Assembly (NCBI GenBank): GCA_949299935.1
Contig: CASGCE010000016.1
Coordinates: 1-64,000, forward strand
DNA length: 64,000 nucleotides
Direction of reading: 5' to 3'
Source: an uncultured bacterium
GTDB taxonomy: Bacteria > Cyanobacteriota > Vampirovibrionia > Gastranaerophilales > Gastranaerophilaceae
The notes below the pieces were generated by a model. It did not search any database. It saw only the letters and a list, made by a program, of their open reading frames with translations, and had not been told where the DNA came from. This document shows, piece after piece, positions 15,290 to 19,250 of this stretch. Within the stretch, counting starts at the first letter, position 1. Each line of letters opens with the position of its first letter. A program made the position numbers and the translations under genes.

Positions 15290-16402
15290 TTACACCGAAA
15301 AATAATTTCTTATAATCTTTTCTATTCTTAAAGCTGATTTTCCGTCCCCGTAAGGATTTTGTACTTTTAGTCTGGATTCGACTTTTGATTTTGAAAGAAT
15401 TTCTTCACTGTAGTCAATAATTTTTTCGTAATCAGCACCTACAAGCACTGATACACCTGCGTTAATTCCTTCCTGGCGTTCTGTTTCGTATCGCATCACA
15501 AGTGTCGGACAGCCGAACGACGGTGCTTCTTCTTGTATGCCTCCGGAATCCGTCAAAATTAGTTTCGCATTTTTCATTAAATATACAAGGTTCGGGTAAT
15601 CTAGCGGCTGGAATAATTTAATCTGAGTGTATTTTTCCAATCTCTCATAAATTTTGTTATGCACATTCGGATTTGGGTGCACAGGGATAATAAATGTGTG
15701 GTCAGCGTATTCTTTTGCTAGATGCTCTATTGCATCTAAAATTTTGTCAATCCTTGCTCCGTGATTTTCTCGTCTGTGTACTGTTATCAATACCAGTTTG
15801 TTGTTGATTATTACATTATTGCGTTTGAAAAATTCTGCAGCATCATTTAAAGTATCATTTGATAGGCAAAACAGGGCATCTATAACGGTATTACCCGTTA
15901 CATAAATTTTATCCTCTGAAATATTTTCACTTAGTAATGCTTCTTTGTTTTTTTCAGTTGGAGCAAAATTAAGTTCGGCAACTCTTGTTGTCATTTGTCG
16001 CATGATTTCTTCAGGAAATGGCTCATATATGTCATATGACCTTAAACCTGCTTCTATATGAAATACCGGGATTTTTCTGTAATAGCTGGCTAATGCTCCG
16101 CACAATACCGTCATCGTATCCCCTTGCACAATCGTTGCATCAAATGTTTTACTTTCAAAAACACTATCAAGTGCCTGTAGTATCCTGCTTTGCACTGAAA
16201 TAAGAGATTGATTTTCACGCATACAGTCCAAATTAATGTCTGCTTTTAAACCGAAATATTGTAAAGTTTGGTTTGAAAGCTCTTTTTGCTGCTCGGTGTT
16301 ACATAGAGTTACGTCATAATTGTGTTTTTTTAGCTCCAGAATTACTGGTGCCAGTTTTATTACTTCCGGACGTGTTCCGAATACTACCAATATGTTTTTC
16401 AT
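15290..16402 (-). CDS. wecB: UDP-N-acetylglucosamine 2-epimerase (non-hydrolysing)
   Basis: 370 residues, full length for the family. Diagnostic blocks are FGTRPEVIKLAPVILEL, VQGDTMTVLCGALASYYRKIPVFHIEAGLRS, FPEEIMRQMTTRVAELNFAPT, VTGNTVIDAL, TVHRRENHG, PVHPNPNV, LTDSGGIQEEAPSFGCPTLVMR and ERQEGINAGVSVLVG. It interconverts UDP-GlcNAc and UDP-ManNAc in the cytoplasm for surface polysaccharide. A TATAAT lies 11 bases before the ATG at 16402, giving a leader of only a few bases. It has no adjacent wecC, so UDP-ManNAc use must be encoded elsewhere. Confidence 0.95.
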   Translation of the reverse strand: MKNILVVFGTRPEVIKLAPVILELKKHNYDVTLCNTEQQKELSNQTLQYFGLKADINLDCMRENQSLISVQSRILQALDSVFESKTFDATIVQGDTMTVLCGALASYYRKIPVFHIEAGLRSYDIYEPFPEEIMRQMTTRVAELNFAPTEKNKEALLSENISEDKIYVTGNTVIDALFCLSNDTLNDAAEFFKRNNVIINNKLVLITVHRRENHGARIDKILDAIEHLAKEYADHTFIIPVHPNPNVHNKIYERLEKYTQIKLFQPLDYPNLVYLMKNAKLILTDSGGIQEEAPSFGCPTLVMRYETERQEGINAGVSVLVGADYEKIIDYSEEILSKSKVESRLKVQNPYGDGKSALRIEKIIRNYFSV

Positions 16403-16515: not shown

Positions 16516-16749
16516 ATGCTTGATTTGTTTGTTTCAAAAACTTGTCCTTATTGTATCAAGGTAATGAATTTTTTTAATGATAATAAGATTGATTACGCTG
16601 CATTTGATATTAATTATGAACAAAATTTAAAAAAATTAATGACATTAGGCGGTCTTGAGCAAGTCCCGTTTTTATTCGACGAAGCAAATAATATCAGAAT
16701 GTACGAATCTGACCGAATTATTGATTATGCAAAAAATTTGAATAAATAG
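16516..16749 (+). CDS. Glutaredoxin
   Basis: 77 residues, the usual glutaredoxin length, with active site KTCPYC at residues 8-13, the cis-proline strand LEQVPFLFDE and a terminal helix. It reduces disulfides or mixed disulfides, or couples to ribonucleotide reductase. The ATG at 16516 has a GGGGGA ribosome site. The next gene, seven bases downstream, is the degenerate hybrid-cluster-protein homologue, so the two are one operon. NrdH-like or mycoredoxin use cannot be excluded. Confidence 0.9.
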   Translation: MLDLFVSKTCPYCIKVMNFFNDNKIDYAAFDINYEQNLKKLMTLGGLEQVPFLFDEANNIRMYESDRIIDYAKNLNK

Positions 16750-16756
16750 GTGCATT

Positions 16757-18352
16757 ATGTTTTATAGTAAAAGTAATTTATTTGAATATAACGAATGTAT
16801 CGGACGTGGTATGTGCTCAATATTCCCTACCATATCTTCATTTCAGGAGGTTATGCTCATTATTTTCAGAACTTTGAGCTATTATATTCTGAAGCTGGAA
16901 AAATTGGGTGAAGATTGTTATGAGTATAAATTACACGTCGCAGATGGTGTCTCAAATCTTATTTCTACAACCGGATATTCTGATGAACAGCTTTTAAGTC
17001 TTATTATAAGCAATTATAACGATTTGATTAAGGTTAGAAAAAAGTATTCTCAAATTTGCAAAACCAAAGACATTTCTTGCAAACATATTAAGCTCACTTT
17101 AAAATTGTTGCCAAATATGGGATTATCGGACGTCTTGTCTTTGGGACACAGGTTTATAAGTGATAAAAATAAAAAAATGTCAACTGCACAAAAGTGTTAC
17201 TCAGAGCTTTTATTTGTTGCCATTAAAAGTGTATCTTTAAGTTTAGAGAAGCTTTTTGATTATAACATTGCGGATGAAAGTTCTATTGATAATATAATAG
17301 TTGCTTTATCGTTGTTCAATTTCAGCATTTTCCCGGTTAATAAGGCTAAAATATTGATTACAAAGCTTGTAGAATCGGATTTAAGATTATGGAAACTTAG
17401 AGAAAATGTTCAGCGCAGTACTTTTGGTGAAATTTCCAACGTCAAAGTGTCCTTTTCGACTGAACCGGGGAAGGCTATTTTGGTTTCAGGATCTTGCCTT
17501 AATGATTTGTATAATATTTTGGAGTACACTAAAGATGTAAAAATCGATATTTATACACACGGTGATTTATTAATCGCTCATTCATTTGAACATTTCAGAA
17601 AATATAAAAACCTTAAAGGTCATTTCGGTTCTTCTAGCGATAATTGTGTTTTGGATTTTGCAACTTTCCCCGGTGCAATATTGTTAAGTAAACATGCTAC
17701 GCAAAATATTGAATTTCTTATAAGAGGAAGGCTTTTTACTACGGACAGAATCGCGCCTAAAGGTGTGGTTAGCGTTTCAGATAACGATTTTTCTCAGGTT
17801 TTGGACGCAGCATATATTGCAAAAGGTTTCTCGAAAGGCAGAAAAAAAGATGCTGTGTTTGTCGGCTTTGACTACAATGAGTTGAATAATAAACTTGATT
17901 CTGTCGCTTCTGATTTGATGTCCGGTAAACTGCGACATATTTTTATCTTCGGTATGTCTAATTTCTCTAATGAGCAAAATTTTTATTTTAATAATTTCTT
18001 GAAATTTATGCCTAAAGATTGTTTTGTATTAAGCTTTTCTTATCACTGTGATTGCGATAATTTGCTTTATGTAAATATTGCAAACAACTTCCCTTTGCAA
18101 TTAACCGTTTTGGGTATGTTGTTTGACAAGATTTCTGTTGAATCCTCGAAACTTACTTTTTTCCTGACAAAATGTGATTCTAATACAATATCTGCTATGA
18201 TAAGTTTAAAGCAGCATGGTGCTAAAAATATTTATCTTGCAAATTGTCCTCCTACTATTATTAATCCTGCTGTTATGACTTCATTTATGAGATTATATTC
18301 AATAAAATCAATAACAAATGCTGAAAATGATATAAATGATATATTAATATAA
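16757..18352 (+). CDS. Hybrid cluster protein (Hcp) homologue lacking the Fe-S/hybrid cluster ligands
   Basis: 531 residues, close to Hcp length. The C-terminal half follows Hcp block by block: ILVSGSCLNDLYNILEYTKD, IDIYTHGDLLIAHSFEHFRK, KGHFGS, FPGAILLS, GRLFTTD, KLRHIFIFG, PKDCFVLSF and HGAKNIYL. Hcp binds a 4Fe cluster through an N-terminal Cys cluster and a hybrid Fe-S-O cluster through His, two Glu and four Cys. Here the N-terminal Cys set is gone and HGE is HGD (D270). The TTNC, GGCDG (now GMSNF, 399-403), GQCND and WFEQK blocks have lost their ligand residues. NO or hydroxylamine reduction is therefore unlikely. The role is unknown; it is coupled to glutaredoxin. Confidence 0.82.
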   Translation: MFYSKSNLFEYNECIGRGMCSIFPTISSFQEVMLIIFRTLSYYILKLEKLGEDCYEYKLHVADGVSNLISTTGYSDEQLLSLIISNYNDLIKVRKKYSQICKTKDISCKHIKLTLKLLPNMGLSDVLSLGHRFISDKNKKMSTAQKCYSELLFVAIKSVSLSLEKLFDYNIADESSIDNIIVALSLFNFSIFPVNKAKILITKLVESDLRLWKLRENVQRSTFGEISNVKVSFSTEPGKAILVSGSCLNDLYNILEYTKDVKIDIYTHGDLLIAHSFEHFRKYKNLKGHFGSSSDNCVLDFATFPGAILLSKHATQNIEFLIRGRLFTTDRIAPKGVVSVSDNDFSQVLDAAYIAKGFSKGRKKDAVFVGFDYNELNNKLDSVASDLMSGKLRHIFIFGMSNFSNEQNFYFNNFLKFMPKDCFVLSFSYHCDCDNLLYVNIANNFPLQLTVLGMLFDKISVESSKLTFFLTKCDSNTISAMISLKQHGAKNIYLANCPPTIINPAVMTSFMRLYSIKSITNAENDINDILI

Positions 18353-18353
18353 C

Positions 18354-18380
18354 AAAAAGCCCCGTTTGTGCGGGACTTTT
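18354..18380. terminator. Bidirectional terminator between the Hcp-like gene and rpsG
   Basis: A5, then AGCCCCG, loop TTTGTG, CGGGACT, T4. It sits between two convergent genes and serves both. Confidence 0.75.
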
Positions 18381-18399: not shown

Positions 18400-18870
18400 T
18401 TAGTATCTATAGTGAGCGAATGCTTTATTAGCCTCTGCCATTTTATGGGTGTCCTCACGTTTTTTGCAGGCAGCTCCTTGACCATTTGAGGCATCAATAA
18501 GCTCACTGGTTAGTTTATCAATGAAAGATTTACCGTGGCGTTTTTTAGCCGCTTCAATAAGCCAAGATGATGCAAGTGCAAAGCCTCTGTCTGTTTTTAC
18601 TTCAATTGGTACCTGATACGTAGAACCTCCTATACGTCTTGCTTTTACTTCCAATAGCGGAGTAGCATTCGCAACTGCTTTTTGGAACAACTCCATAGGT
18701 TTTTCATTAGTTCTTTCTTCAATTTTAGTCATTGTTGAATAAAAAATCTTCTCAGCAAGAGATTTTTTACCGCGTCTCATAATTCTGTTGATAAATTTGG
18801 ATATATCAACACTATTGTATACCGGATCCGCTAACGGTACTCTTTTTGCCGGTTTAGAACGTCTTGACAT
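18400..18870 (-). CDS. rpsG: 30S ribosomal protein S7
   Basis: 156 residues, the standard length: [64 protein letters not shown] and MAEANKAFAHYRY at the end. It binds the 3' major domain of 16S rRNA and the exit-site side of the subunit head. It directly abuts rpsL (shared base 18870). In most bacteria fusA and tuf follow in this operon; here transcription meets a terminator right after rpsG. Confidence 0.98.
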   Translation of the reverse strand: MSRRSKPAKRVPLADPVYNSVDISKFINRIMRRGKKSLAEKIFYSTMTKIEERTNEKPMELFQKAVANATPLLEVKARRIGGSTYQVPIEVKTDRGFALASSWLIEAAKKRHGKSFIDKLTSELIDASNGQGAACKKREDTHKMAEANKAFAHYRY

Positions 18871-19250
18871 TACTTACCTCCCTTTGCTTTTTTAGCACCG
18901 TATTTAGACCTGCTTTGTGCGCGGTTTGCCACTCCTGCAGTATCCAATGTACCTCTTACTATGTGATATCTTACACCCGGAAGATCTTTAACACGGCCTC
19001 CTCTTATAAGAACTACACTGTGTTCTTGCAAATTATGACCAATCCCCGGAATATATGATGTAACTTCAAATCCGTTAGTTAAACGTACTCTGGCAACTTT
19101 TCTCAGTGCTGAGTTTGGTTTTTTAGGGGTTGTAGTATAAACCCTTGTGCATACTCCGCGTCTTTGTGGACAATCCATCAATGCCGGAGATTTTGTTTTG
19201 TCAATTAGCTTTTTACGTTCTCTGCGAACAAGCTGGTTAATTGTAGGCAT
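18870..19250 (-). CDS. rpsL: 30S ribosomal protein S12
   Basis: 126 residues: [44 protein letters not shown] (with the decoding-centre Lys of KKPNSALRK), and [21 protein letters not shown] with the second drug-contact loop RVKDLPGV. It helps decoding at the A site. An AAGGAG site precedes the ATG at 19250. It is co-transcribed with rpsG from a promoter with a leader of about 160 bases. Confidence 0.98.

Follow-up and report, generated by a model that had tools for sequence, protein, structure and literature searches.

Within the window, a stretch of 64,000 nucleotides of Gastranaerophilaceae DNA, a small glutaredoxin gene (grx) is followed after seven bases by hcpX, which encodes a degenerate paralogue of the hybrid cluster protein (Hcp). 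Both frames are intact, and an earlier note on this DNA had given the 531-residue frame, the CPYC glutaredoxin and the spacing between them correctly. The two genes stand between wecB and rpsG/rpsL, and a terminator-like hairpin occupies the gap between hcpX and rpsG. Judged by this layout, grx and hcpX probably form a two-gene operon. A promoter scan gave a number of matches that was not above chance. The features are listed in Table 1, where D. vulgaris Hcp residues are marked Dv.

Table 1. Genes, ligand-position codons and cysteine codons at the grx-hcpX locus, in positions of the window.
Feature	Position	Strand	Evidence or remark
wecB	15290-16402		divergent from grx-hcpX
Glutaredoxin (grx), 77 aa, CPYC, small Grx2/GST-N-like type	16516..16749	+	PF13417 35.3 bits, PF00462 35.0 bits
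hcpX, degenerate Hcp paralogue, 531 aa	16757..18352	+	PF03063, TIGR01703, AF2 model, Foldseek
C14 codon, third cysteine of canonical N-terminal [4Fe-4S] motif, kept	16796..16798	+	100/100 in Grx-linked clade
C20 codon, fourth cysteine of canonical N-terminal [4Fe-4S] motif, kept	16814..16816	+	100/100 in Grx-linked clade
S246 codon, replaces ligand His Dv H244	17492..17494	+	
D270 codon, replaces ligand Glu Dv E268	17564..17566	+	
A314 codon, replaces ligand Cys Dv C312	17696..17698	+	
S401 codon, replaces persulfide Cys Dv C406	17957..17959	+	
C473 codon, new Cys replacing Dv Y493, adjoins former Glu ligand	18173..18175	+	99/100 in clade
D474 codon, replaces ligand Glu Dv E494	18176..18178	+	Asp in 97/100 of clade
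C497 codon, new Cys in loop equivalent to Dv GPTLPAF	18245..18247	+	98/100 in clade
Terminator-like hairpin, hcpX/rpsG gap	18355..18380		best formed on the - strand
rpsG/rpsL	18400-19250		convergent on hcpX

HcpX was assigned to the Prismane / Hcp-CODH superfamily by PF03063 (88.7 bits, gathering cut-off 27), and hcpX was the sole PF03063 gene found in its genome. The hydroxylamine reductase model TIGR01703 matched residues 12-427 with 200.9 bits (E 3e-59), below its equivalog cut-off of 360.8. Sequence matches in the PDB were exclusively to Hcp; 1e2u (D. vulgaris Hcp) aligned to residues 13-527 and the profile alignment spanned residues 2-532. AlphaFold (AF2) models of HcpX had pLDDT values of 87.5 and 88.7, and a Foldseek search with the model returned E. 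coli Hcp 7de4 (TM 0.81) first and D. vulgaris 1e1d (TM 0.79) second. Foldseek and the profile alignment together show a full-length Hcp fold. The Hcp likeness that the earlier note described through the second half of the chain was real but too narrow, as the homology covers the whole chain. HcpX has in common with the class I Hcps (D. vulgaris, D. desulfuricans, M. thermolithotrophicus; TIGR01703/PF03063) the monomer-type full-length fold with outer helices, the domain order, the YTHG and FPG segments and the CX5C spacing of the last two N-terminal cysteines. It differs from them in its ligands, in two new fixed cysteines and in a score under the equivalog cut-off. HcpX is an Hcp by fold, not by its defining ligands.

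Ligand positions were mapped from the alignment to 1e2u, in D. vulgaris numbering, and from canonical Hcps of related genomes. At all seven hybrid-cluster ligand positions (one His, two Glu and four Cys) HcpX has a different residue. Besides the replacements in Table 1, Dv C434 has become Y429 and Dv C459 has become A442; the changes at Dv E268 and E494 are conservative substitutions of Asp for Glu. The same losses were seen across 100 relatives of the Grx-linked clade, where the ligand columns vary (S, N or G for the His; E, S or A for Dv C312), except that of Dv E494, which is Asp. Core residues of the Hcp fold, e.g. G245, Y266, F301, P305, G306 and G357, were retained. The loss of the hybrid-cluster ligands claimed in the earlier note therefore stands at all seven positions and holds in the survey of relatives; such a protein cannot bind the hybrid cluster. 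Two of its details do not: the GHP segment, said to have changed to GEI, holds no ligand, the ligand His being that of SGHDL, now SGSCL, and the Glu column of WFEQK, said to be lost, persists as D474.

In the N-terminal cluster, cysteines 1 and 2 are gone and cysteines 3 and 4 persist as C14 and C20, so that two of four cluster cysteines are left and the claim that all had been replaced was wrong. A reading of HcpX as an ordinary Hcp, one that reduces NO or hydroxylamine and whose ligands have simply moved along the sequence, would fit the Foldseek match and the conservative D474 and D270. We consider it very improbable from the aligned ligand columns. The four hybrid-cluster cysteines and the His have given way to variable, mostly non-coordinating residues, and in M. 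marburgensis HCP the absence of cysteine 1 is by itself enough to remove the [4Fe-4S] cluster (PMC10502027). Furthermore, a canonical Hcp co-occurs in 12 of 35 sampled relatives of the family, about a third. An evolutionarily altered active-site centre within the Hcp/CODH superfamily is also seen in CODH-V of Carboxydothermus hydrogenoformans, which, unlike HcpX, retains a hybrid-type cluster and the CODH architecture (PMC10502027). Going by the ligands, an automatic annotation of hcpX genes as, for example, hydroxylamine reductase would be wrong.

C473 and C497, which the earlier note had overlooked, were found in none of 20 canonical Hcps; C497 stands where these have Thr, Ser or Asn. All four cysteines were present in 118 of 131 HcpX members, and no member among the 131 had only one of C473 and C497. 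With divergent members added, both were lost together in the same four of 35 clusters at 50% identity (hypergeometric p 2e-5), so this pair is gained and lost as a unit. C14 and C20 alone are retained in L062, L055/L166, L170 and L172, of which L055/L166 are nonetheless linked to a glutaredoxin, and one clade (clade b) shows the reverse of L062, having lost the N-terminal pair and kept C473/C497. In four of five clusters that lack one N-loop cysteine, C497 has another cysteine beside it, against three of 26 others (Fisher p 0.005; with about two origins, a weak test), which suggests that the four thiols lie in one site. A fifth cysteine, C101 (17057-17059), closes a helix of domain 1; its conservation in HcpX is 93%, and canonical Hcps almost never have it.

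In the AlphaFold model C473 and C497 each lie three residues past consecutive strands of one beta-alpha-beta unit. Residues 1-21, which include C14 and C20, had pLDDT values below 50 in models built from 45 and from 113 sequences, and the N-loop is unplaced. A known relative places the two regions close to each other. When M. marburgensis HCP lacks one N-terminal cluster cysteine, its N-terminal domain is disordered and the regions around Glu434 and Trp461 shift by 5.3-5.8 A (PMC10502027). Glu434 corresponds to D474 of HcpX, and Trp461 lies, by residue count, four residues past the C497 position. In that protein the N-terminal cysteine region is thus a neighbour of the loops equivalent to those of C473 and C497. 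The terms "stripped of its metal ligands" and "cluster-free" in the earlier note went too far: with two cluster cysteines kept and two new ones fixed, a protein free of metal and one with a metal site rebuilt from four cysteines are equally likely.

The glutaredoxin scored above the PF00462 cut-off of 22.9 bits and carries the CPYC motif. Its best NCBIfam match was NF007702, glutaredoxin 2, at a score far under the cut-off of that model. It shares with the glutaredoxin 2 / GST-N type (GrxB, NF007702) the CPYC site, the cis-Pro VP segment and the ESD segment; it differs in length (77 aa) and in lacking the C-terminal helical domain, and roughly one in five linked loci has CPYS instead. CPYC was found in 73 of 105 linked loci, and CPYS, in which the second active-site Cys is replaced, in at least 22 (e.g. 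L054:5300-5527). A survey of relatives agreed with the glutaredoxin neighbour described in the earlier note: in 79 of the 80 closest loci it lies directly upstream of hcpX, at a spacing of -20 to +16. Much of this linkage tracks a conserved wecB-grx-hcpX-rpsG order, and the pair persists in other gene surroundings in L045 and L054. In the divergent subclades of L050, L055, L159-L161, L163 and L166 the upstream glutaredoxin is of another type, Grx3-like and 88-93 aa long, and in six of these genomes it is the only glutaredoxin found. The two types point to hcpX having been paired with a glutaredoxin at least twice. None of 28 canonical Hcp loci had a glutaredoxin within about 1.5 kb. In about eight divergent subclades no glutaredoxin adjoins hcpX, and most such genomes encode one elsewhere. 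Glutaredoxin adjacency showed no association with either HcpX cysteine pair. The glutathione gene gshB was found in the genome of the window and in 39 of 40 family genomes, and glutathione is therefore probably made; gshB showed no trend with cysteine or glutaredoxin retention, only G018 (L062) being without it.

These data bear on a metal-free thiol switch, in which C473/C497, at the vestigial active site, and C14/C20, in the N-loop, would each make up an independent dithiol. Both would alternate between the thiol and the disulfide state, or bear glutathione or NO, and would be reduced by the glutaredoxin. The two cysteines of a pair are mostly present or absent together, clade b and L062 show that either pair can be present without the other, and both the linked glutaredoxin and gshB would suit such a protein. 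The extra cysteine beside C497 in members that miss an N-loop cysteine argues instead for one shared site, and a CPYS glutaredoxin in at least a fifth of loci would be no plain dithiol reductase there. On balance, we regard two separate dithiols as somewhat unlikely.

A scan of GTDB genomes with the single sequence found no relative of HcpX; an alignment-based scan recovered them. The HcpX profile matched 166 of 170 genomes of the family in the phylum sample, and weaker matches inspected in representatives were likewise degenerate. Frames were intact in almost all of the 166 hcpX-bearing genomes. The dN/dS ratio was 0.105 at a dS of 0.21 for L057/L060, the only unsaturated pair. HcpX is under purifying selection, and the earlier description of the gene as maintained and not decaying is borne out. 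The many positions lost relative to Hcp could be taken as the mark of a pseudogene or decaying gene, a reading that is refuted by the intact frames, the low dN/dS and the fixation of new cysteines, and to which we give practically no credence. In L018 it is the canonical hcp that carries an internal TAA, with HcpX intact in the same genome. Close HcpX genes were also present in L126 and L143, whose GTDB titles read Brachyspira and Heliobacteriaceae; these assemblies are probably misnamed.

In the tree, the HcpX sequences of the family form one clade (100/99 support) and the canonical Hcps a separate clade (100/100). Between them branch the partly degenerate Hcps from two further families of the order, L032 and L033/L034 on the one hand and L035/L036 on the other. 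The topology would be compatible with a single old duplication and a subsequent step-wise loss of ligands. The Hcp of L032 (L032:800-2446), from another family of the order, has lost part of its ligands as HcpX has, yet its four N-terminal cysteines are intact, as are some of its hybrid-cluster ligands; it is a possible intermediate. L033/L034 and L035/L036 have an Hcp fold with ligands lost, as in HcpX, and in L035/L036 even C14 and C20 are missing. Unlike HcpX, none of these proteins has the C473/C497 pair or an adjacent glutaredoxin.

Conservation without catalytic ligands could also mean that HcpX is a structural or regulatory pseudoenzyme, a scaffold or binding partner whose cysteines serve only folding stability. 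The retained fold core would agree with this, as would the hcpX copies that stand in tandem (three in L038:4620-9485, two in L042:429-3688), which lack an adjacent glutaredoxin and diverge freely. For cysteines in surface loops, however, fixation at 98-100%, a paired gain and a glutaredoxin link would not be expected, and we find this explanation doubtful. Among the papers searched, none treated Melainabacteria together with hydroxylamine reductase, or hybrid cluster protein together with pseudoenzymes, and the sole match for Gastranaerophilales with glutaredoxin was an unrelated phage paper.

Our preferred explanation, to which we give somewhat less than an even chance, is that grx-hcpX is a redox module in which HcpX has exchanged two clusters for one predicted four-cysteine site served by the glutaredoxin. 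An old duplication of Hcp in Gastranaerophilales would have given rise to HcpX. Neither the hybrid cluster nor the canonical N-terminal [4Fe-4S] cluster would have survived in it, and the protein would have been kept for a new function. The inherited C14 and C20 and the gained C473 and C497, the latter two predicted to sit on adjacent loops in the Rossmann domain at the C-terminus, may form a single site at the interface of the N-loop and the old active-site loops. The adjacent glutaredoxin could service these thiols, either by glutathione-linked disulfide exchange or by handling a held metal centre. Against a single four-cysteine site stand the low pLDDT of the N-loop, the lineages with the N-terminal pair only, the failure of glutaredoxin adjacency to track either pair and the subclades without an adjoining glutaredoxin. 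More specifically, HcpX may hold an Fe-S or Zn cluster at the new place, between C14/C20 and C473/C497, and the glutaredoxin would be dedicated to assembling or reducing this cluster. This is offered tentatively; if true, a metalloenzyme would have shed both of its clusters and built a new one out of what remained.

What Hcp does has been disputed for decades. A paralogue kept under selection after loss of the catalytic cluster separates the role of the scaffold from that of the cluster. The series from canonical Hcp through the partly degenerate L032 protein to HcpX with its new cysteines would offer a direct route to studying how one redox centre is replaced by another. In this family of gut bacteria, which are related to cyanobacteria, nearly every genome has HcpX, with the catalytic metal site gone, four cysteines fixed and, in most cases, a glutaredoxin gene beside it; this suggests that an old metalloenzyme was rebuilt there for a new thiol or metal job.
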